In this document: in pieces, positions 24,323-52,640 of the stretch
How the letters are laid out: every line of letters begins with the position of its first letter
Position numbering within the stretch: the stretch's first letter is position 1
From: an uncultured Fodinibius sp.
GTDB taxonomy: Bacteria > Bacteroidota > Rhodothermia > Balneolales > Balneolaceae
Assembly: GCA_913056455.1 (NCBI GenBank)
Contig: CAJXMJ010000001.1
Location: forward strand, 744,001 to 808,000
Length of the DNA stretch: 64,000 nucleotides
Direction of reading: 5' to 3'
The notes under the pieces: generated by a model
The model's database searches: none
The model's input: the letters and a program-made list of their open reading frames with translations, nothing else
Told to the model about the DNA's origin: nothing
Translations under genes and position numbers: made by a program

Positions 24323-24353
24323 TTGATTTTCGGTTCGACGGATACTATCTTCA
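24323..24353 (+). promoter_or_regulatory. Candidate promoter of the trp operon
   Basis: TTG (24323-24325), 20 bases, TATCTTCA (24346-24353), two mismatches to TAnnTTTG and the same spacing as the clean rpsO and rimP promoters. Transcription would start around 24357-24361, at or just before the leader-peptide ATG. The rest of the gap 24214-24322 holds nothing I recognise. Confidence 0.5.
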
Positions 24354-24360
24354 GGTCGTT

Positions 24361-24438
24361 ATGAAAAAATCAGCTCATAAAAATACTAATTGGTGGTGGC
24401 CTGTAAAGCAACATACACAGGCAGTGGCATTTTTATGA
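24361..24438 (+). CDS. trpL: trp operon leader peptide
   Basis: 25-codon open frame, too short for ordinary gene calling, with Asn-Trp-Trp-Trp-Pro at codons 10-14 (TGG TGG TGG at 24391-24399). Trp is rare in proteins, and three in a row just ahead of a hairpin series, a terminator and trpE is the signature of ribosome-mediated attenuation. Ribosomes starved for charged tRNA-Trp would stall here. The predicted transcription start coincides nearly with the ATG, so translation may begin on a leaderless RNA; if the start is further upstream, the AGG at 24352-24355 could serve as a weak ribosome site. The peptide itself (begins MKKSAHK, ends AVAFL) probably has no other role. Confidence 0.88.
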   Translation: MKKSAHKNTNWWWPVKQHTQAVAFL

Positions 24439-24475
24439 GTTAGTGTAACGTAAAGAATTTTATAGAGCCCACTGC
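24399..24475 (+). promoter_or_regulatory. trp attenuator: pause hairpin and antiterminator segments
   Basis: Segment 1 GCCTGT (24399-24404), starting in the last Trp codon, pairs with segment 2 ACAGGC (24417-24422). Segment 2 overlaps GCAGTGG (24421-24427), which pairs with segment 3 CCACTGC (24469-24475). Segment 3 is also the left arm of the terminator. The 1:2 and 2:3 pairings exclude each other, as do 2:3 and 3:4. Confidence 0.82.
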
Positions 24476-24498
24476 AGGAAACTGGAGTGGGCTTTTTT
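24467..24498 (+). terminator. trp attenuator terminator
   Basis: Stem GCCCACTGCAG (24467-24477) with CTGGAGTGGGC (24482-24492), one G-G mismatch, GAAA tetraloop, then six T (24493-24498). It lies 28 bases after the trpL stop and 65 bases before the trpE ATG, so termination here would leave only the leader RNA. Confidence 0.92.
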
Positions 24499-24563: not shown

Positions 24564-26039
24564 ATGGATTTAGATAAATTTAAACAGTTAGCAAAAAATT
24601 ATACCGCTGTGCCGGTCTATCGGCGATTAATGGCCGATGTACTTACGCCGGTTTCACTCTTTTTATCACTACGGAAAGGTGCCGAGTATCCATTTTTGCT
24701 GGAATCGGTGGAAGGTGGGGAACAGGTTGCACGATACTCCTTTTTAGGTCGTAATCCCTATAAGATTTTGCGATACGATGGAGAACAGGTAACTATACAG
24801 CAAAATGACAATACCGTAGTTCTTGAACAGTCCTATTTTGAAGCACTTAAAGAATTAACGATTCAACACAGTGAGCCTAAACTTCCTGATTTGCCAAGGT
24901 TGACCGGAGGGGCTGTAGGTTTTTCATCATATGATACCGTTCGTGAGGTAGAAGAGTTGGGCGATGTCCCGGAAGACGATCTGAATATACCGGAAGCTAT
25001 CTGGGCATTTTACGATGAGGTCTATGCCTTTGATCACGTGAAGCAGCAAGTGATCATAATTAAAACAGTATTTGTGGATGATGAAGCCAAAAAATCCTCG
25101 GAGACCTTATTCGAAGAGGCACAGCAATCGCTCGATGAAATGGAAAAGCTGGTGTATCAGCCTGAGCGCTCAACGGATTCGTTTAGCATTAATCCGGACA
25201 ACCTTACCAGCAATATTGAAAAACCTGCCTTTCAAGAGATGGTTGAAAAGGCTAAGGAGTATATTTACGAGGGCGATATTTTTCAGGTAGTGTTGTCACA
25301 ACGATTTGAAACGGATTTTAGTGGCGATCGTTTTATGTTATATCGCGCCTTGCGGATGGTAAATCCGTCACCGTATTTGTTCTTTCTGGACTTTGATGAT
25401 TTTGGGTTGATCGGCTCATCGCCCGAGGTGTTAGTACGCGTGCAGGATGAAACGGCCCAATTGTTACCGATTGCAGGAACTCGTCCCCGGGGTAAGACTC
25501 CTGAAGAGGATTTGGAACTGGAGCAAGATCTTAAAAATGATCCCAAGGAAATTGCTGAGCATGTAATGTTGGTTGATTTGGGGCGTAATGATTTGTCACG
25601 TGTTTGTAAGCCGACTACCGTAAAGCCGGTGCGTGAGCAAGTGATTGAGCGTTATTCACATGTAATGCATATTGTATCGGATGTAAAAGGCCAATTGGCT
25701 GATAATAAAACAGCGGTGGATGCGCTCAAACGTTGTTTTCCTGCAGGAACGGTTAGCGGAGCTCCTAAAATTCGAGCGATGGAAATTATTGATGAGCTGG
25801 AACCAACTAAGCGTGGTCCCTATGCAGGAGCAGTGGGATATTTTGACTTTTCCGGGAATATGGATACCTGTATTGTGATACGCACGATGCTTGTTACCGA
25901 TTCAAAAGTGTATATACAGGCGGGAGCCGGTATTGTTGCCGATAGCGATCCTGAAAAAGAGTTTGTAGAAACGCAAAGTAAGGCAGGGGCCCTGGTAGAA
26001 GCACTTAGCGTGGCCTTGTCAATAACAGATGATAATTGA
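24564..26039 (+). CDS. trpE: Anthranilate synthase component I
   Basis: Converts chorismate to anthranilate with ammonia from TrpG. The N-terminal FLLESVEGGEQVARYSFLG includes the LLES tryptophan feedback site. The catalytic half has GDIFQVVLSQRF, GSSPEVLVR, AGTRPRGKTPEEDL and AEHVMLVDLGRNDL. 491 residues, normal length. First structural gene after the attenuator. Both feedback inhibition and attenuation by tryptophan are therefore expected. Confidence 0.97.
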   Translation: MDLDKFKQLAKNYTAVPVYRRLMADVLTPVSLFLSLRKGAEYPFLLESVEGGEQVARYSFLGRNPYKILRYDGEQVTIQQNDNTVVLEQSYFEALKELTIQHSEPKLPDLPRLTGGAVGFSSYDTVREVEELGDVPEDDLNIPEAIWAFYDEVYAFDHVKQQVIIIKTVFVDDEAKKSSETLFEEAQQSLDEMEKLVYQPERSTDSFSINPDNLTSNIEKPAFQEMVEKAKEYIYEGDIFQVVLSQRFETDFSGDRFMLYRALRMVNPSPYLFFLDFDDFGLIGSSPEVLVRVQDETAQLLPIAGTRPRGKTPEEDLELEQDLKNDPKEIAEHVMLVDLGRNDLSRVCKPTTVKPVREQVIERYSHVMHIVSDVKGQLADNKTAVDALKRCFPAGTVSGAPKIRAMEIIDELEPTKRGPYAGAVGYFDFSGNMDTCIVIRTMLVTDSKVYIQAGAGIVADSDPEKEFVETQSKAGALVEALSVALSITDDN

Positions 26040-26057: not shown

Positions 26058-26128
26058 TGTCGTGCTGAACTTGTCTTAGCATCTGAAAGAGTAACATTTA
26101 CAGATCCTCAAATGAATTCAGGATGACA
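26058..26128. repeat. Dispersed palindromic element, copy A (trpE-trpS gap)
   Basis: 71-bp unit with near-inverted ends TGTCGT and ATGACA. Its left half is a hairpin around TGCTGAAC...TTAGCA and its right half one around ATCCTCAAA...TCAGGAT. It matches copy B (30357-30429) in both halves. It lies in the 131-base gap between trpE and trpS. Confidence 0.75.
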
Positions 26129-26170: not shown

Positions 26171-27160
26171 ATGAAAACAATATTATCGGGAATACAATCG
26201 TCAGGAAAACTCCATTTAGGTAACTACTTTGGAGCACTGCGTCAGCATATTCATATGCAGGAAGAAGGCGATGCTTTTTATTTTATTGCAAACTATCACT
26301 CTCTCACTTCAATAAACGATGGGGAAGAAATATATCAGAATACGATAGATGTGGCGCTTGATTACCTGGCCCTTGGGTTAGATCCTAATAAAGCAACGTT
26401 TTTTGCACAGAGTGATGTGCCGCAGCATGCGGAGTTGGCCTGGATTTTGGGCACTTTCTGTCCGGTTAGCCTGATGGAAAAGGGGGTGGCTTACAAAGAC
26501 AAGGTAGCACAGGGTTTAAAACCAAATATTGGTTTGTTTACCTATCCAATTTTGCAGGCAGCTGATATCCTTATGTACAATGCAGATTTAGTTCCTGTAG
26601 GGCAGGATCAGAAGCAGAATATTGAAATTTGCAGGGATTTGGCCGGAAAGTTTAATCATAATTATGGCGATGATTATTTAAAGCTGCCCGAACCTCATAT
26701 ACTGGAATCCGTAGCGGTTGTACCGGGTATTGACGGACAGAAAATGAGTAAGTCCTATGGTAATACCATTGGTATTTTTGATGAAGGCAAGGAGTTAAAG
26801 AAAAAGGTGATGTCCATTCAAACAGATTCCACACCGCTGGATGAACCAAAAGACCCGGAAAGTTGTAATGTGTTTGCACTTATCAAGCTTTTTGCTGATG
26901 AAGAGAAGCAGAATGAGATTGCTCAAAAGTATCGGGATGGCGGTTATGGTTATGGTCATGCCAAGAAGGAATTATTAGGCATGATTGAAGAATATTTTGC
27001 GGAAGCGCGAGCTAAGCGTAAAGAATTATCTCAGGACTTGGATACTGTTCGAGACATCCTAAAAGAAGGCGGAAAGAAAGCACGAGAACGTGCTGAAAAA
27101 GTCATGGAACCCGTCCGCGAAGTTACAGGATTGTTTAAAACCTACGATTTTACGAGTTAA
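26171..27160 (+). CDS. trpS: Tryptophanyl-tRNA synthetase
   Basis: Class I aminoacyl-tRNA synthetase charging tRNA-Trp. The HIGH-equivalent is HLGNYFGAL (residues ~16-24) and the KMSKS motif is GQKMSKSYGN. 329 residues is the usual bacterial length. Unusually, it sits between trpE and trpG, so it falls under the same attenuator that senses charged tRNA-Trp. No second leader is seen before it, so the placement suggests co-regulation of synthesis and charging. Confidence 0.96.
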   Translation: MKTILSGIQSSGKLHLGNYFGALRQHIHMQEEGDAFYFIANYHSLTSINDGEEIYQNTIDVALDYLALGLDPNKATFFAQSDVPQHAELAWILGTFCPVSLMEKGVAYKDKVAQGLKPNIGLFTYPILQAADILMYNADLVPVGQDQKQNIEICRDLAGKFNHNYGDDYLKLPEPHILESVAVVPGIDGQKMSKSYGNTIGIFDEGKELKKKVMSIQTDSTPLDEPKDPESCNVFALIKLFADEEKQNEIAQKYRDGGYGYGHAKKELLGMIEEYFAEARAKRKELSQDLDTVRDILKEGGKKARERAEKVMEPVREVTGLFKTYDFTS

Positions 27161-27165
27161 ACATT

Positions 27166-27759
27166 ATGATTTTAATCATCGATAACTACGATTCTTTTAC
27201 GTACAATCTGGTACATATTGTCGCGGAGCACACGGACGATTATAAGGTGATTCGCAATGATGAACTTACTATAGAAGAAGTTAAAGAGCTTAACCCCGAC
27301 AAAATACTTATTTCGCCCGGCCCCGGACGACCTTCTGATGCAGGTATTACCGAGCCGCTTATCGAAGAATTGGGACATGAGACCCCGATTTTGGGGGTCT
27401 GTCTTGGTCATCAGGCAATTGGGGAAGTTTTTGGGGGGAAAGTGATTCATGCTCCACAATTGATGCATGGCAAGACCTCTCGGATAAAACATGATGGAAA
27501 GTCAGTGTTTCAAAATATTCCCGATAATTTCACGGCCACGCGCTATCATTCGTTGGTGTTAGATCCCGATAAAATTCCTGATGTGTTGGAAGTTTCGGCA
27601 CACAGTGATGATGGGGTTATCATGGGAGTGCGCCATAAAGAATGGCCCCTAGAGGGCATACAGTTTCATCCCGAAAGTATACTTACTACTGAGGGACCTA
27701 ATATTGTCAAAAACTGGATTCTACAGACCAATAACGAATATAAAATTGCTACAACATGA
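27166..27759 (+). CDS. trpG: Anthranilate synthase component II (glutamine amidotransferase)
   Basis: Releases ammonia from glutamine for TrpE. Class I amidotransferase triad: Cys in GVCLGHQAIGE, His and Glu in IQFHPESILT. 197 residues, N-terminal IDNYDSFTYNLVH. It follows trpS by five bases and overlaps trpD by four (ATGA). It may also serve aminodeoxychorismate synthase (pabA role), as no separate pabA is in the window. Confidence 0.95.
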   Translation: MILIIDNYDSFTYNLVHIVAEHTDDYKVIRNDELTIEEVKELNPDKILISPGPGRPSDAGITEPLIEELGHETPILGVCLGHQAIGEVFGGKVIHAPQLMHGKTSRIKHDGKSVFQNIPDNFTATRYHSLVLDPDKIPDVLEVSAHSDDGVIMGVRHKEWPLEGIQFHPESILTTEGPNIVKNWILQTNNEYKIATT

Positions 27760-28796
27760 TTGATTTTAAACAGATTTTAGAAAAGCTGGCACAACGCCAG
27801 GATTTATCCCCCGAAGAGGCTCGATCGGCTTTGCAGGCTATTTTAGAAGGGGAGGTGGAAGACGAAAAAACCACCGCTTTTTTACTGGGAATGCGTTCGA
27901 AAGGTGAAACTATCGAAGAGCTTACGACCTTCGTTAAAGTGATGCGCGAAGCAGCCGTAAGTCCCGAAGTAGATGTTGAGGGAGCGGTTGATTTATGCGG
28001 TACCGGAGGCGATGGACTGGGAACGTTTAACATTTCTACGGCAGCCATGTTTGTGGTGGCCGGGGCGGGCGTTCCGGTACTTAAGCATGGTAACCGAAGC
28101 GTATCGAGCAAGAGTGGGAGTGCCGATGTACTGGAAGCGCTTGATATTGTGGCTACATTACACAAAAAACAGATTGAGCAGGTTTTTGAAGAAGTAAATG
28201 CCTGTTTTATGTTTGCGCCCAACTTTCACCCGGCAATGAAACATGTAATGCCGGCCCGTCAAATTTTAGGTATTCGATCCTTCTTTAATACCATGGGGCC
28301 GCTACTGAATCCGGCAGGAGTACGCAGACAGGTTGTTGGAGCTTTTGATAAGCGGACCGCAAAGCAGATAGCTATGATTCTATCCAATTTAGATTCTGAA
28401 CGAGTATTTAGTGTTCACGCCCGAGACGGGTTGGACGAGTTTAGTTTGAGTGCCCCTACGTTCATCCATGAAATTGAGGACAATTCATTTGTGGATGAAC
28501 GGGAATTCAATGCCTCTTCATTAGGGTTTGAACCTGTTAGCTTACAAGAGTTGCAGGGTGGTGACCAGTATTATAATGCTGATATTATTCGGTCTGTCCT
28601 TCAAGGGAAGGGGGAGGCACCTCATCGTGATATTGTGCTGCTTAACGCAACTTTTGGCATTCATGTATCCGGGAAAACAGATTCTCTTGAAGAAGCGAAA
28701 GCATTGGCAACCGATAGTATTGACTCTGGTGCGGCCTTAAAGGTTTTACAACGAATGAGTGAGGCTACGAATGATATAATGGGGTCGACCCCGTAA
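27756..28796 (+). CDS. trpD: Anthranilate phosphoribosyltransferase
   Basis: Transfers phosphoribose from PRPP to anthranilate. CGTGGDGLGTFNIST binds pyrophosphate, KHGNRSVSSKSGSADVLEAL anthranilate/PRPP, and the family segment RSFFNTMGPLLNPAG follows. 346 residues. Start overlaps the trpG stop by four bases. Confidence 0.96.
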   Translation: MIDFKQILEKLAQRQDLSPEEARSALQAILEGEVEDEKTTAFLLGMRSKGETIEELTTFVKVMREAAVSPEVDVEGAVDLCGTGGDGLGTFNISTAAMFVVAGAGVPVLKHGNRSVSSKSGSADVLEALDIVATLHKKQIEQVFEEVNACFMFAPNFHPAMKHVMPARQILGIRSFFNTMGPLLNPAGVRRQVVGAFDKRTAKQIAMILSNLDSERVFSVHARDGLDEFSLSAPTFIHEIEDNSFVDEREFNASSLGFEPVSLQELQGGDQYYNADIIRSVLQGKGEAPHRDIVLLNATFGIHVSGKTDSLEEAKALATDSIDSGAALKVLQRMSEATNDIMGSTP

Positions 28797-28798
28797 TT

Positions 28799-29614
28799 AT
28801 GGCAAATATCCTCGAAGAAATAGTTGAACAGACGAAAATTGATCTTAAAAAGCGAAAGCGGGAGGTAAGCTTTCATGATCTGGGAGATATGGAGCTTTTT
28901 GAGCAAAATCCGCAAGATTTTTCTGAAGCGCTGCAGCTTGAGAATGATGTGGCTATTATAGCAGAAATTAAAAAGGCTTCTCCGTCAAAAGGACTTATTC
29001 GTCCCGATTTTGATCCCAAAAAAATAGCCGGACAATACCAAGACGGCGGCGCCTCTGCTATTTCAGTATTAACGGATGAGCCTGCGTTCAAAGGGAGTCT
29101 TAAATACTTGGAAGCTGCTTCTAAAAATGTTTCTATTCCACTTCTAAGAAAGGATTTTATTGTTGATCCCTACCAGGTAAAGGAGGCTAAAGCTTATGGT
29201 GCTGATGCTGTATTATTGATTGCGACGATTACGGAAGGGAGTCAACTTGATGAACTTCTGCATGCCACAAATGAGTTTGGGTTACAAGCACTGGTTGAAT
29301 GTTATTCGGAAGAGGATATCGAATATATTAACTTTGATCATATTGAGATCTTAGGTGTTAATAATCGCGATTTGCGATCTTTTGATGTTGACCTTCACAG
29401 GGGGATTGAGCTACTGCATAAGGCTTCTGAGGATACTGTATTGGTATCTGAAAGCGGACTCGGAAAGCCGGAGGATTTAAAGTTACTGTATGATGAAGGT
29501 ATCCATGCCGCGTTGATTGGAGAATATTTTATGCGTCAGTCTGATCCCGGTGAAGCCGTGATGGGGATGAAATCAAAACTGAAGAATCTAATTACCCAAG
29601 AAGTAGAAGAGTAA
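28799..29614 (+). CDS. trpC: Indole-3-glycerol phosphate synthase
   Basis: Ring closure of CdRP to indole-glycerol phosphate; TIM barrel of 271 residues. The catalytic lysine motif AEIKKASPSKG, LLRKDFIVDPYQ, LVECYSEEDI and GVNNRDLRSF are present. Two bases after trpD and directly abutting trpF. Confidence 0.95.
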   Translation: MANILEEIVEQTKIDLKKRKREVSFHDLGDMELFEQNPQDFSEALQLENDVAIIAEIKKASPSKGLIRPDFDPKKIAGQYQDGGASAISVLTDEPAFKGSLKYLEAASKNVSIPLLRKDFIVDPYQVKEAKAYGADAVLLIATITEGSQLDELLHATNEFGLQALVECYSEEDIEYINFDHIEILGVNNRDLRSFDVDLHRGIELLHKASEDTVLVSESGLGKPEDLKLLYDEGIHAALIGEYFMRQSDPGEAVMGMKSKLKNLITQEVEE

Positions 29615-30289
29615 ATGTTTGCAGATCCGGAAGAACGAACAAAAGTAAAAATTTGTGGAATCACTACGCTTGAAGATGCTCGATTTGTTTCGGGCGCGCT
29701 GGCCCATTACATGGGTTTTGTATTCTATGAGGATAGTCCGCGTCATATTTCGCCGGCCAAGGCAGGGGCGATTATTAATTGGCTGCATGGGCCTGAATGT
29801 GTTGGTGTCTTTGTGAACCAGCCGCTGGATGATGTGAACATGATAGCCCGTCAGACAGGTATCGACTTTGTGCAGCTGCACGGCAACGAAAATCCGGATT
29901 ATTGCTCGCTTGTTGATAAACCGGTGATTAAGGCGATTCATGTAGAGGAGGAAGATACAGCTTCGGATTTAAATGCGCGCATTGATCCATTTTTAGACAA
30001 CGTTGAATACTTGCTTTTTGACACCAAAGTAGAGGGCAAATGGGGCGGCACTGGAGAAGCATTTAATTGGTCTCTTTTGGATGAGGTTTCTCAGGGAGTA
30101 CCTTATTTCTTAGCGGGTGGGTTGAATCCGGACAATATTTTCGAAGCTTGCAAAGAGGTACATCCGTATGCAGTAGATGTTTCGAGTGGATTAGAAGATA
30201 AGCCCGGTGTAAAGGATTTTGATAAGGTCGATGCGTTTATGGAAGAGATGGAAGAGATATGGAAAAAACAGGAGGTTGGGGGACTATAG
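29615..30289 (+). CDS. trpF: Phosphoribosylanthranilate isomerase
   Basis: Isomerises PRA to CdRP. KICGIT gives the catalytic Cys, QLHGNE is the conserved strand 3 end, LFDTK carries the catalytic Asp, and AGGLNPDN and DVSSGLE bind phosphate. 224 residues. Its ATG follows the trpC stop with no gap. Confidence 0.94.
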   Translation: MFADPEERTKVKICGITTLEDARFVSGALAHYMGFVFYEDSPRHISPAKAGAIINWLHGPECVGVFVNQPLDDVNMIARQTGIDFVQLHGNENPDYCSLVDKPVIKAIHVEEEDTASDLNARIDPFLDNVEYLLFDTKVEGKWGGTGEAFNWSLLDEVSQGVPYFLAGGLNPDNIFEACKEVHPYAVDVSSGLEDKPGVKDFDKVDAFMEEMEEIWKKQEVGGL

Positions 30290-30356: not shown

Positions 30357-30429
30357 TGTCATGCTGAATTTATTTCAGCATCAGAAAACAAATTATTCTA
30401 AAATATCCTGGAACAAGTTTAGGATGACA
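30357..30429. repeat. Dispersed palindromic element, copy B (trpF-trpB gap)
   Basis: 73-bp unit bounded by TGTCAT and ATGACA. Left hairpin TGCTGAAtttaTTTCAGCA and right hairpin ATCCTGgaacaagttTAGGAT are separated by about 20 AT-rich bases. Clearly related to copy A and better preserved. It fills much of the 160-base trpF-trpB gap. Confidence 0.8.
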
Positions 30430-30449
30430 TTTTAATTAAGATCTAAACA

Positions 30450-31643
30450 ATGAAATACGATTTACCGACTAAAGAAGGATATTACGGCGATTTTGGCGGC
30501 AAGTTTGTACCGGAAATTTTAATTCCCGTACTCGAAGAATTAGAAGCAGCGTACGAAAATGCCTGGCAGGATGAGAATTTTCAGCAGGAATACCGGCAAT
30601 TGCTAAATGAGTATGTGGGACGTCCGACAAAGCTGACTTATGCCAATCGCCTTACAGATCACTATGGTAAAGCAAAAATTTATTTGAAGCGAGAGGATCT
30701 TTGCCATACCGGAGCACATAAAATAAATAACGCTATTGGACAGATTTTACTGGCCCAGCGCATGGGTAAAGATCGTATAATTGCAGAAACAGGGGCCGGC
30801 CAGCATGGTGTAGCTACCGCTACAGCTTGTGCTAAATTTGGGGTCGATTGCATCGTATATATGGGCGCTGAAGATATGGAGCGTCAGAAGTTAAATGTTG
30901 AACGCATGAGGTTACTTGGTACGGAAGTTCGTCCCGTAACCAGCGGATCGCAGACCCTAAAAGATGCCACCAACGAAGCCATTCGCGACTGGGTAACCAA
31001 TGTGGAAGATACGTTTTATATTATCGGCTCAGTTGTAGGTCCACATCCATATCCCAAGATGGTACGGAACTTTCATCGTGTTATTGGGGATGAAACACGC
31101 AGGCAGTTAGCTGAGGATGAGGGACGAGAATCGCCGGATCACCTGTTGGCTTGTGTAGGCGGTGGATCAAATGCAATAGGTATCTTCTATCCCTTCATTG
31201 AGGATGAATCTGTGCAAATGTATGGGCTTGAGGCGGCAGGATTGGGGGCTGATACTGACCAAACTGCAGCAACTCTTACCATCGGTCAACCCGGTGTGTT
31301 GCACGGTTCTATGAGTTATTTGCTGCATAATTCAGAGGGACAAATTCAGTTAGCCCATTCTATTTCGGCCGGACTGGATTATCCAGGCATCGGCCCTGAG
31401 CACTCGTACCTCCATAAAACTAACCGCGTACATTATAAAGCTATTACCGATGATCAGGCGATGGAGGGTGTTAAACTGCTTTCTGAAACTGAAGGTATTA
31501 TCCCGGCTTTGGAAACGGCTCATGCAATAGCATATTTGGATGAACTGATGCCCACGACATCCAAGGATGAAATTGTAGTTTTGAATTGCTCTGGGCGGGG
31601 CGATAAAGATATGGGCACTATATCAAAGCATATAGACCACTGA
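30450..31643 (+). CDS. trpB: Tryptophan synthase beta chain
   Basis: PLP enzyme joining indole and serine to tryptophan. The PLP lysine lies in [29 protein letters not shown] contacts the cofactor/monovalent ion region, [10 protein letters not shown] binds PLP phosphate, and [13 protein letters not shown] ends the protein. 397 residues: a TrpB1-type chain paired with trpA 102 bases on. Confidence 0.97.
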
Positions 31644-31696: not shown

Positions 31697-31726
31697 ATCC
31701 TGTTCTGATAGTTTGTAGAACAGGAT
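31697..31726. repeat. Hairpin in the trpB-trpA gap
   Basis: ATCCTGTTCT (31697-31706) and its exact complement (31717-31726) form a 10-bp stem with a 10-base loop. There is no T-run, so it is not a terminator. It shares the ATCCTG/CAGGAT ends of the dispersed element and may be a truncated relative that stabilises or processes the mRNA. Confidence 0.55.
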
Positions 31727-31745: not shown

Positions 31746-32558
31746 ATGGTTCAGACAGAAAAAAGAATTACACAACTCTTCGAACGACATGACGGCTCGG
31801 AAAAGATTATGAGCCTGTTTTTAACAGCTGGGTATCCCGATCCGGAAGCAACGGTTGATCTTATTTTGGGGTTTGAGGAGAATGGCGTGGACTTGGTCGA
31901 ACTGGGCATGCCGTTCAGTGATCCTCTGGCTGATGGCCCCACTATTCAATATTCCAGTAATGTGGCTATTGAGCAAGGAATCACAATGAAGAAGATATTG
32001 AATATCGTAGAGCAAGTACGGGAGAAGTCTGATATCCCTATTATCTTGATGGGATATATCAATCCGGTGCTGCGGTATGGAGCGGAAAGGTTTTGTCATG
32101 ATGCTGCCGAAGCGGGAGTAGATGGACTCATTATCCCTGATATCCCCATAGAAGAGTCTGGGATTTTAAAAGGTGAGGCGGATAAGAATGAACTGCCCAT
32201 TATTTATCTCGTGGCCCCCAATACGTCTGATGAGCGAATGCGTAAGATTGATGAACAGTCACAGGGATTTGTGTACTGTGTATCAGTTACAGGTGTAACC
32301 GGGGCTCGGGAAGGGGATGAGGTAGCGAGGTCTGTCCAACGATTCATCAGCCGGGTGAAACAGAATGTAACCAAGAATCCGAAAATGGTTGGCTTTGGGA
32401 TTAAATCCCACGAGGATGCCCAGCGTATAGCAGCAGATATGGACGGCTTTATTGTGGGGAGTGCTCTGATTGATACCATTCGGGACAATTATCCTGAAGA
32501 GGGATGGAAGGATGAGGTGTTTGCATTTGTTAGAAGGTTGAAGTATGGTAAAGAGTAA
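31746..32558 (+). CDS. trpA: Tryptophan synthase alpha chain
   Basis: Cleaves indole-glycerol phosphate and channels indole to TrpB. Catalytic Glu in ELGMPFSDPLADGP, Asp in IIPDIPIEES, and GFGIKSHEDA for phosphate binding are present. 270 residues. Last tryptophan gene; 24 bases to the next gene with no terminator, so the two downstream genes may be on the same transcript. Confidence 0.96.
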   Translation: MVQTEKRITQLFERHDGSEKIMSLFLTAGYPDPEATVDLILGFEENGVDLVELGMPFSDPLADGPTIQYSSNVAIEQGITMKKILNIVEQVREKSDIPIILMGYINPVLRYGAERFCHDAAEAGVDGLIIPDIPIEESGILKGEADKNELPIIYLVAPNTSDERMRKIDEQSQGFVYCVSVTGVTGAREGDEVARSVQRFISRVKQNVTKNPKMVGFGIKSHEDAQRIAADMDGFIVGSALIDTIRDNYPEEGWKDEVFAFVRRLKYGKE

Positions 32559-49724: not shown

Positions 49725-52640
49725 ATGTCCAAGAAGACAAGAAGATTATTCAAAGTTGCATCTGAATTTAATGTCTCTACCACCTCTATAGTGGATTCGT
49801 TATCAGATGAGGGCTTTGATATTGACAATAAACCTAATTCCAAGATTACGCCCGAAATGTACGAGGCGCTGGAAGAGGTTTATGGTGTTGATAAAGCAAA
49901 AAGTAAGGAGCACGAGAAGGCAAAAGAAGAGTATGAGAATCGCCGTAATCAGATTCGTGCCAGCCGTAATCAAAGTGTTTCTGTTGAAGATTATCTGGAG
50001 CCTCTTGAAGATGAGGACTTGCCTATTGAGCCTCAGGAAGAGGAAGAGATAGAAGGCATCAAGCCAAAAGATGAGGAGGCGCCTGAAGGGGAGGTTGAGG
50101 AAGAACCCGAAGAAGTCGAAGCCTCTGAAGAAGATCAGGCTGAAGAGATGGATGATGAGCCCGATGAAGAAGAGGTGGAAGTTGAGGCTAAAGAGGAGTC
50201 CGAGGAGGAAGATCAGGATGAAGAAGAAATTGAAGAGCCTCAGGAAACGGTAGAAGCCGAAGAAGATGATGAGGTTGACGAAGCTGAGGAAGATGATGAG
50301 GATACCTCAGAAGAAGAACCCGCCGATGAGGATGTTGAAGAGGAAGAAGATGACTCTGATGATGAAGAAGATTATGACGAAGACGAGGATGATTTAGAAG
50401 ATGATGACGAGGAAGAAGATGAAGAAGATGAAGAAGATGAAGAAGATGAAGAGGAGGATGATGAAGAGGAGGATGATGAAGAGGAGCATGGCGTAATTCG
50501 GGGTCATGCTGGTCGATTAAAGGGAACAAAGGTTGTCGGTAAGGTCAAAATTGATGATAGTAAGCCTAAGCGGCGCAAGAAACGAAAACGCAAGAAAGAT
50601 CGCCAGGAAGAAGATGATGATGGGTCAAATAAAAAATCTGGCAAGCGAAACAAGAAGAAAAGTAAAAAGAAAAATAAGAAGAAGCGTCGTAAGCGTGGAA
50701 GCCGTGTTGATGAGGAGGATGTAGAACAGAAAATGAAGGAGACGCTGCAGAAAATGCAGTCGTCTGAAACGGTTGGTAGTAAACGCCAGAAACGACGCCG
50801 CCAGCGAAAAGAAGAACGCGAGGAAGAAGAACAGCTTCAGCAGGAGCTTGAAGAGCTTGAAGATCAGATCATTGAAGCTACTGAGTTTATTACAGTCAGT
50901 GATTTGGCTGAACTTATGGATGTGAAAGCCAATGATGTAATTACGACCTGTATGGATCTGGGCATGATGGTATCTATCAATCAGCGGTTGGATGCCAGCA
51001 CGATTGAACTTGTTGCCGAAGAATATGGCTATGAAGTTGAATTTGTTGATGCCGATGATGCCATTGAGGAAATTGAACTTGAAGAAGATGATCCGGAAGA
51101 TCTTGAACCTCGAGCACCCATCATCACGGTTATGGGGCACGTTGACCACGGAAAAACCTCTCTGCTTGATTATATTCGTAAGTCACAGGTTGCCGAAGGA
51201 GAAGCCGGTGGTATTACTCAGCATGTGGGTGCTTATGAAGTAACAACCGATGACGGGCGACCTATTACATTCCTTGATACCCCGGGTCACGAAGCGTTTA
51301 CTGCCATGCGTTCGCGTGGGGCACAGGCAACAGATATTGTTATTCTTGTGGTTGCAGCGGATGATGCTGTGATGCCGCAAACTATTGAGGCGATTAATCA
51401 CGCCAAGGCTGCTGGTGTTTCTATTATTGTTGCGATTAACAAGATGGATAAACCCGGAGCTAATCCCGATAAAATTAAGCAGCAACTCGCTGAACATGAT
51501 GTGATTGTTGAGGAATACGGTGGTACTAACCAGGTTGCTGAAGTTTCAGCTAAAACCGGTGAAGGTATTCCCGAGCTGCTTGAGAAGGTTCTTATTGAAT
51601 CCGAATTGATGGAGCTAAAAGCAAATCCCGATAGAAATGCTGATGGGGTTGTTCTTGAGGCTCGTGTTGACAAAGGAAAAGGTATTGTATCAAATATACT
51701 TGTACAGAATGGTACACTTGAAGTGGGCGATGCATTTGTAGCGGGACCATGTTTCGGGCGTGTACGTGCCATGGAAAATGAACATGGAGAACGCATTGAG
51801 TCGGCAGGTCCTTCTACACCATTACAGCTAACCGGATTTGATGATATTCCACAGGCCGGTGACAAACTGGTTGCCCTCGATGATGAGAAGAAGGCCAAAG
51901 AGATTGCCAATCAGCGACAGCAGATCAAGCGCGAGCAAGAGTTGCGTCAATCCAAGCACATGAGTCTTGATGACCTTTCACGTCGTCTTGCACTTGGTGA
52001 GATCGAAGACCTCAACCTTATTATTAAGGCAGATGTAGACGGATCGATTGAAGCACTTTCCGGGGCATTACAGAAGCTGAGCAATGAGGAGGTCTCTGTG
52101 AATATTATTCATACCGGAGCCGGAGCTATAACCGAATCTGACGTACTACTCGCATCTGCTTCGGAGGCAATTATTATTGGATTCCAGGTTCGTCCGACTT
52201 CCAATGCGCGTAAAGTAGCTGAAGAGGAAGAGATTGATATACGACTCTTTAGCGTGATTTATGATGCCGTTGATGAGGTTAAAGATGCGATGGAGGGTAT
52301 GCTTTCACCCGAAATTAGCGAACGATTGTACGGTAATGCTGAAGTCAGAGAAATCTTTAAAGTATCCAGTGTCGGAACTATTGCCGGATGTTATGTGACT
52401 GATGGCAAGATCAATCGCAATAACCCGGTCCGGGTGGTTCGTGACGGTGTTGTAATTTATGATGGAGAAATTGATGCTCTTAAACGCTTCAAAGATGACG
52501 TTAAAGAAGTCAAAAGTGGGTACGAATGCGGTATCAGTATTGTAAATTATAATGATATCAAAGTTGGTGACGTTATCGAGAACTATGAGGTTGTTGAGGA
52601 ACGCCGAAGTCTCGAAGATGTGAAAAGTGACGATAGCTAA
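49725..52640 (+). CDS. infB: Translation initiation factor IF-2 with long charged N-terminus
   Basis: GTPase that brings initiator tRNA to the ribosome. The G domain begins near residue 465 with [23 protein letters not shown] and NKMDKP; domains II-IV follow. The first ~465 residues hold an IF2-N helix, a Glu/Asp-dominated region (about residues 90-260), a Lys/Arg block (about 279-332) and a second IF2-N motif. The acidic run includes in-frame 9-base units (50411-50450). Total 971 residues, long for IF2 but within its variable range. Strongly acidic composition fits a salt-adapted cytoplasm (inference). Confidence 0.96.
50411..50450 (+). repeat. In-frame 9-bp tandem repeat in infB
   Basis: About four copies of a GAAGATGAA unit, coding Glu-Asp-Glu, sit within the acidic region of IF-2. 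Copy-number change would keep the frame and alter only the length of the acidic linker. Confidence 0.7.

Follow-up and report, generated by a model that had tools for sequence, protein, structure and literature searches.

What controls the tryptophan operon in the stretch of DNA studied here, and does a short Trp-rich reading frame just before trpE take part in that control? The window, meaning the whole stretch of 64,000 nucleotides, carries eight trp genes behind this frame, and its named neighbours are Balneolaceae and Balneolales. The trp attenuator of E. coli combines consecutive Trp codons with a 2:3 antiterminator and a 3:4 terminator, and the ribosome that terminates translation covers region 2. 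We know of no described regulator of the trp pathway in Balneolota and Rhodothermia. A sequence-only reading of the window had proposed the architecture of trp attenuation, and this is supported in that it fits the features that could be tested: a leader ORF with Trp codons, a predicted intrinsic terminator, a 2:3 pairing that excludes the 3:4 pairing, and a region 2 that would be covered or left free by the ribosome footprint. By far the best explanation of the element, and one that we consider very probable, is that it would act as a ribosome-mediated trp transcription attenuator. Tryptophan synthesis and the enzyme that charges tRNA-Trp are very likely under ribosome-sensed control in Balneolota and Rhodothermia.

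The leader in the window

Table 1. Features of the trp leader and operon, with positions in the window
Feature	Position	Strand	Details and basis
Predicted -33 promoter element TTGATTT	24323..24329	+	consensus match
Predicted -7 promoter element TATCTTC	24346..24352	+	consensus match
trpL leader ORF, MKKSAHKNTNWWWPVKQHTQAVAFL	24361..24438	+	25 codons and TGA; sequence read, re-read by script
Outer stem, 5' side	24372..24384	+	13 pairs, partner 24429-24441; fold
Three consecutive Trp control codons	24391..24399	+	read from sequence
Region 1, GCCTGT	24399..24404	+	partner ACAGGC 24417-24422; read from sequence, untranslated fold
Region 2, GCAGTGG	24421..24427	+	partner CCACTGC 24469-24475; 7-bp 2:3 pairing
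Region 3, terminator 5' arm	24467..24477	+	sequence, fold, covariation
Region 4, terminator 3' arm (24482-24492) and T6 (24493-24498)	24482..24498	+	sequence, fold, covariation
trpE, anthranilate synthase component I	24564..26039	+	TIGR00564, 563 bits, cut-off 517.7
trpS, tryptophan-tRNA ligase	26171..27160	+	TIGR00233, 298.1 bits, cut-off 176.75
trpG, glutamine amidotransferase	27166..27759	+	TIGR00566 over cut-off
trpD, anthranilate phosphoribosyltransferase	27756..28796	+	TIGR01245 over cut-off
trpC, indole-3-glycerol phosphate synthase	28799..29614	+	NF001377 over cut-off
trpF, phosphoribosylanthranilate isomerase	29615..30289	+	NF002298 over cut-off
trpB, tryptophan synthase beta	30450..31643	+	TIGR00263 over cut-off
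trpA, tryptophan synthase alpha	31746..32558	+	TIGR00262 over cut-off

The leader frame starts with an ATG at 24361-24363 and stops with a TGA at 24436-24438. The sequence-only reading had this 25-codon frame and its three consecutive TGG codons exact base for base, both by eye and by script. The pairings it had drawn are confirmed as well, namely a 1:2 hairpin starting in the last Trp codon, a 7-bp alternative 2:3 pairing (Table 1) and an 11-bp terminator with one mismatch, a GAAA loop and T6 before trpE (24467-24498). The 1:2 hairpin has 6 bp and begins at the final base of the third Trp codon, the terminator loop occupies 24478-24481, and the terminator ends 65 nt 5' of trpE. A simple hairpin scan omitted the terminator because its stem has a mismatch; folding and the alignments reveal it.

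The predicted fold of the window leader is stabler than 200 of 200 shuffles (z -4.18). In the lowest-energy fold an outer stem, which was absent from the sequence-only reading, is combined with other inner pairs, and the 6-bp 1:2 hairpin is seen in the fold of the untranslated leader. The outer stem may keep the untranslated leader closed.

Conservation of the leader and terminator

The trpE upstreams of unnamed relatives and of named records, counted where their last 250 nt were distinct, were searched with a detector that looks for a short ORF with at least two Trp in five codons together with a strict terminator. It was positive in 60 of 70 Balneolales upstreams, the window included (0.2 of 70 in shuffles), in 27 of 35 from other Rhodothermia (0.6), in all 19 that are Ignavibacteria-like (0.0), in 29 of 45 from other Bacteroidota in the GTDB sense (0.2) and in 2 of 56 from outgroup phyla (0.2). 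On the reverse strand it gave 0 in every group. Some matches with two Trp are doubtful, for example L103, L152 and L201; at least three Trp within five codons were detected in 53 of the 70 Balneolales loci. Six of the ten Balneolales loci missed by the detector have a Trp-rich leader and a bulged or long-loop terminator, the terminator being judged by eye, and a Trp-rich leader ORF stands before trpE in 66 of the 70 loci, the window among them. The search for relatives lacking the Trp codons or the terminator, which had been suggested as a check on the sequence-only reading, came out in its favor in these 66 loci.

The terminator might have been an ordinary one, belonging to pssA or unregulated, that lies beside a chance ORF. 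The remaining 4 of the 70 loci (L031, L041, L113 and L122) speak for this, as they have a terminator at the same place before trpE and no Trp codons; L122 (G055), from another family of the same order, has the terminator but no Trp-rich ORF. Against it, chance falls far short of explaining the conservation of the Trp runs, the spacing and region 2, with 60 of 70 loci detected versus 0.2 of 70 in shuffles and the 2:3 pairing supported in 54 of 60, and a promoter is predicted in the stretch that separates pssA from the leader. We have rejected this explanation and consider it extremely improbable.

The leader also appears to be single in its genome. A search with model R1 gave 27 matches at E<=10, the window at 88.6 bits and the next at 30.7 bits. 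Among L320-L326, which are seven of the 26 other matches, the sole detector match was L326, rejected as a second copy of the leader since its frame forms the end of a long ORF. Outside the phylum, the sole convincing leader among the 56 outgroup upstreams is that of L107, a deltaproteobacterial MAG, which has, about 140 nt 5' of trpE, a terminator and a leader peptide of the WWW kind, MELTIGKSDVRYYWWWYSYGRVMSTA.

Support for the terminator and the 2:3 pairing

For the structural comparisons 119 of 122 leaders were kept; L103 and L201, both doubtful two-Trp cases, and the deltaproteobacterial L107 were dropped. Alignment A1 holds 54 of the 60 Balneolales leaders, leaving out L123, L135, L137 and rows more than 93% alike, and it was divided by eye into A2 (38 rows) and A3 (16 rows) because region 2 lies in two registers. 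Uncorrected for kinship, the terminator in A1 is paired in 98.0% of cells, has 96 cells changed on both sides against a shuffled mean of 30.3 (0 of 500) and gives a covariation score of 0.528 against 0.207 (0 of 500), and these values exceed all six slid controls. Double changes occur in 6 of 10 pairs, a number that 114 of 500 shuffles reach.

The 2:3 pairing is supported in most leaders taken one at a time. Compared with 300 dinucleotide shuffles at a threshold of p<=0.05, the 2:3 duplex passes in 54 of 60 leaders from Balneolales and in 15 of 25 from other Rhodothermia; for a duplex between region 2 and the terminator loop plus 3' arm the counts are 6 of 60 and 1 of 25. L123, L135 and L137 are Balneolales with no 2:3 support, and in them the loop plus 3' arm duplex has p values of 0.013, 0.03 and 0.01. 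In the Balneolales, cognate 2:3 partners pair at -15.11 kcal/mol versus -12.21 kcal/mol for non-cognate ones, and re-pairing the partners never did as well, with 0 of 5000 permutations in both the Balneolales and the other Rhodothermia. For the loop plus 3' arm the corresponding values are 239 and 4259 of 5000.

Covariation in the 2:3 pairing is modest in the alignments. In A2, without correction for kinship, 87.7% of cells are paired and 12 are changed on both sides against 3.8 in shuffles, with 0 of 500 shuffles reaching either the cells or the score; the two end pairs do not form in 22 and 19 of the 38 rows. In A3, likewise uncorrected, 93.8% are paired and 3 are changed on both sides against 0.6, with 5 of 500 for cells and score. 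The pairs that change on both sides number 3 of 9 in A2 and 1 of 10 in A3, which 212 and 263 of 500 shuffles reach. The covarying stems that the sequence-only reading had asked to be looked for are found for the terminator by cells and score, and modestly for the 2:3 pairing, where the number of double-change pairs is not above shuffles.

We also folded the leaders with a ribosome placed on them, using assumed footprint sizes. A ribosome at the first Trp codon leaves 2:3 as the fold predicted ahead of the synthesis of region 4 in 57 of 60 Balneolales; when it is placed at the stop codon instead, 58 of 60 folds contain the terminator. The assumed footprint of the stop-codon ribosome overlaps region 2 in 59 of 60 leaders and takes in the whole of it in 27. 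Even in the untranslated state, 35 of 60 predicted Balneolales folds contain 2:3, so a strong 1:2 hairpin that holds the switch off does not seem to be general.

A predicted promoter directly before the leader

The sequence-only reading had no promoter for this leader. A predicted promoter of the Bacteroidota type ends 8 nt 5' of the leader ATG and scores 10/10 against TTGnnTTT-N19-TAnnTT, with the T of the -7 element at -15 from the leader start. In Bacteroides the promoter is given as TTTG at -33 and TAnnTTTG at -7 (PMC7366714). In 46 of 60 Balneolales (7.7% in shuffled sequences) and 19 of 25 other Rhodothermia (6.4%) the best promoter match places its -7 T between -18 and -12 from the leader start; Ignavibacteria-like loci do so in 3 of 19 cases and Bacteroidia-like ones in 2 of 13. 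A score of at least 9 at that distance was found in 0 of the 29 window genes that have an upstream gap of at least 60 nt, the first ATG being taken as the start.

Given this position of the promoter, the leader ORF is predicted to begin no more than about 4 nt from the 5' end. Transcription in the Rhodothermia would start some 0-4 nt before the trpL ATG, and the ORF would be near-leaderless. Only about 3.7% of Bacteroides 5' UTRs are shorter than 10 nt (PMC7366714). The trpL of Sinorhizobium meliloti is leaderless, the 5' end of its transcript being the leader ATG (PMC7298713); the window differs from it in phylum, promoter type and operon, and its short or absent 5' UTR is a prediction.

This likeness raises the question of an additional role in trans for the released leader transcript or its peptide, like that of rnTrpL and peTrpL in S. 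meliloti, since termination here too would set free a small, near-leaderless mRNA (PMC7298713). We think such a second role quite unlikely. The peptide varies strongly between genera outside its Trp run, the C-terminal residues that recur coincide with RNA region 2, and the sequences compared here give no sign of a peptide function.

How the leader would control the operon

In the proposed mechanism the promoter directly before trpL would yield a transcript whose 5' end is at or a few bases from the leader ATG, and a ribosome would trail RNA polymerase into the leader, coupled transcription and translation being assumed. When charged tRNA-Trp is scarce, the ribosome would stall at the Trp codons and leave region 2 free, which could then pair with region 3 before region 4 is made, so that polymerase would read through from trpE to trpA. 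When charged tRNA-Trp is plentiful, the ribosome would reach the stop codon and cover region 2, regions 3 and 4 would pair, and transcription would end 65 nt before trpE. The signal would be tryptophan, or the charging of Trp-tRNA; as trpS belongs to the operon, a drop in charging would increase the charging enzyme as well. For this little-studied group the attenuator predicts that translation is coupled to transcription and that initiation is near-leaderless.

Control might instead be exerted mainly at initiation by a repressor, or by another RNA sensor, with the attenuator in a minor part. Repressors of an unrecognised kind would fit such a scheme. The regulators that could be recognised were rejected, as none is over its cut-off in the genome: there is no TrpR (PF01371), the best match having 20.8 bits versus 27, no TRAP (PF02081) and no T-box (RF00230) at E 0.001. 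The weak PF01371 match is a stretch of 41 positions at the start of an ORF that, by eye, reads like a LacI-type regulator. We regard this alternative as unlikely, and attenuation as the main mode of control remains our preferred reading.

A different antiterminator predicted in other groups

The part of this work that could surprise a specialist is the pairing predicted in relatives outside the Rhodothermia. Reading the sequences of the first set gave rise to the idea that region 2 pairs with the terminator loop plus 3' arm, and the idea was then tested on fresh loci. In the first set, 2:3 was supported in 0 of 19 Ignavibacteria-like loci and the loop plus 3' arm pairing in 11 of 19. A first sample of 13 Bacteroidia-like loci gave little support to either pairing, with 2 loci for 2:3 and 3 for the loop plus 3' arm; for two f22/f28 loci the corresponding counts were 1 and 0.

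Fresh loci of the Ignavibacteria-like order numbered 39, of which 37 have a leader and terminator; the loop plus 3' arm pairing is supported in 21 of these 37 and 2:3 in 2. From family f29 (our own label for a Flavobacteriaceae-like family) 30 fresh loci were taken, 29 with leader and terminator, and here the counts are 21 of 28 and 0 of 28, L289 being excluded because its genome had been seen before. Both fresh sets together, in which some rows are close relatives, give 42 of 65 versus 2 of 65 at p 0.05, and 23 of the 65 fail this threshold for the loop plus 3' arm. Loci with the pairing include L055, L064, L184, L186, L253, L232, L234 and L289-L318. In L055 region 2 CTCAGTGACT pairs with AGTCACTGAG, in L184 CCCGGTGAAT pairs with ATTCACCGGG, and in L234 GTCGTGA pairs with TCACGAC.

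Permuting the partners gave 0 of 5000 for the loop plus 3' arm in both the Ignavibacteria and f29. With the 5' arm the count was 4282 of 5000 in f29 and 1 of 5000 in the Ignavibacteria, where the energies are weak at about -5 kcal/mol. In folds of partial transcripts the rewired helix can form in 55 of 56 and 29 of 29 loci, yet also in 26 of 60 Balneolales, a comparison made with no shuffled control. From these sequences the predicted antiterminator of the Ignavibacteria-like and Flavobacteriaceae-like groups appears to be formed by region 2 and, as its partner, the terminator loop plus 3' arm. The comparison between groups provides a testable case in which one control logic was kept while the antiterminator changed strand.

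A genus with another leader

Within the Balneolaceae one genus departs from this pattern. Among 92 genomes of the family searched, all 9 of genus g5 match a different leader before trpE at E <=1.1e-14, where several matches cover part of the query only and several come from incomplete genomes. Ten aligned leaders of this type (L113:1330-1490, L328-L335 and L041, all upstream of trpE) have a promoter and a terminator, no Trp run, and recurring motifs of about CTCYAARG and CTGTCACTAGTGTTTACCCAC. No Rfam family matches at E<=1 within 3097 bases of L330. This leader is a candidate replacement regulator. Its CTCCAAA stretch resembled a tRNA-Trp anticodon loop, and this likeness was dropped because 5 of the 10 aligned sequences read CTCT.

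The claim that the lineage as a whole controls all trp genes and trpS by attenuation has to be narrowed. The leader is found in 66 of 70 loci and trpS lies in the operon in 19 of 19, which agrees with the claim for these; the attenuator is not used by the whole lineage, because 4 of 70 loci have no Trp codons and genus g5 has the other leader in 9 of 9.

We hold with about equal belief and doubt a wider reading of these comparisons. It says, jointly, that the WWW-leader trp attenuator would be ancestral to the wider Bacteroidota (GTDB sense) and that its switch would have been rewired in evolution. In the Rhodothermia region 2 would take the terminator 5' arm and the sensor ORF would be leaderless or nearly so. 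The Ignavibacteria-like and Flavobacteriaceae-like groups would use the loop plus 3' arm, often with the leader stop codon in or beside the helix, and one Balneolaceae genus would have lost the Trp peptide and would carry, ahead of a terminator in the same position, another conserved RNA leader.

Relation to known leaders

The window shares with the classical proteobacterial attenuator (RF00513, Trp_leader) the Trp leader peptide, the 2:3 and 3:4 pairings and the placement of the stop codon. It differs from the E. coli type in that its ORF is predicted to be near-leaderless, no TrpR is over cut-off and trpS lies inside the operon, and it scores 20.2 bits with RF00513, below the gathering threshold of 41. 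With the trpB motif RF04312 it has 29.1 bits versus a threshold of 59, and unrelated leader families reach 24.0 and 21.7 on the same stretch.

That the element lies outside the best-studied groups, as the sequence-only reading put it, needs qualifying, as the Bacteroid-trp motif (RF01692) was published for Bacteroidetes in 2010 (Weinberg et al. 2010, PMC2864571). Rfam describes it as a Bacteroidete tryptophan peptide leader, and its gathering threshold of 49 bits is passed by L234 (75.5 bits) and L289 (62.4 bits). In these two loci it is like the window in its place before trpE, its WWW-type leader peptide and its pathway. The RF01692 model stops inside the terminator 5' arm, and the antiterminator predicted for the Flavobacteriaceae-like loci, region 2 with the loop plus 3' arm, differs from the 2:3 pairing of the window. 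RF01692 has no match in the window, none in 117 genomes of the class (under stricter filters, the positive control being matched in Bacteroides ihuae) and none in 20 other relatives, five of them Bacteroidia-like.

In the literature, Naville and Gautheret (2010) state that leader-peptide systems were known only in Proteobacteria and Actinobacteria before their own Firmicutes case (PMC2965389). Leader-peptide candidates are reported before amino-acid operons of Flavobacterium psychrophilum (PMC9723704), and leader-peptide attenuation is suggested in Bacteroides thetaiotaomicron (PMC7366714); the passages concerned give no trp-specific anatomy and no Balneolota. A comparative survey by Lopatovskaya et al., cited in PMC4833913, could include some of these systems. 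In titles and abstract openings of mostly non-subscription literature we found no trp attenuator for Balneolota, Rhodothermia or Ignavibacteria, and no loop plus 3' arm antiterminator. The window element belongs to a known kind because Bacteroid-trp and other leader-peptide systems have already been described, so trp-leader attenuation here is not new in kind, and the details for the Balneolota-type group seem not to have been worked out. Added by this analysis are the near-leaderless leader predicted in Rhodothermia, the place of trpS in the operon and the different antiterminator predicted in relatives. Since the Rfam trp-leader models miss the window element, a new covariance model would help annotation.

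The operon and its surroundings

Upstream of the leader lies pssA (TIGR00473 over cut-off). The eight genes from trpE to trpA (Table 1) are on a single strand, in the order trpE-trpS-trpG-trpD-trpC-trpF-trpB-trpA, with gaps of 131, 5, -4, 2, 0, 160 and 102 nt. The terminator detector found none in the three long intergenic gaps, and one weak promoter-like match inside the operon stands at 31713, before trpA. All eight genes are probably carried on one transcript. The position of trpS between trpE and trpG recurs in all 19 named Balneolota-type loci (L032-L050), which are titled Balneolaceae, Balneolales, Balneolia and similar, L048 being a Bacteroidetes bacterium. Five Ignavibacteria-like loci, including one that breaks off shortly after trpE, gave no trpS match to the window TrpS at E 1e-15.

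Two of the gaps contain related imperfect palindromes of the form GTCATGCTGAA...TTCAGCAT...AGGATGACAT, in the trpE-trpS gap at 26059-26127 and in the trpF-trpB gap at about 30358-30430. The pattern occurs 4 times in the window against 0.04 expected, one palindrome accounting for two of these by matching on both strands, and it is perhaps a dispersed repeat. Farther along the window, a long repetitive Asp/Glu-rich stretch is present at 50091-50510, within a large ORF at 49725-52640.
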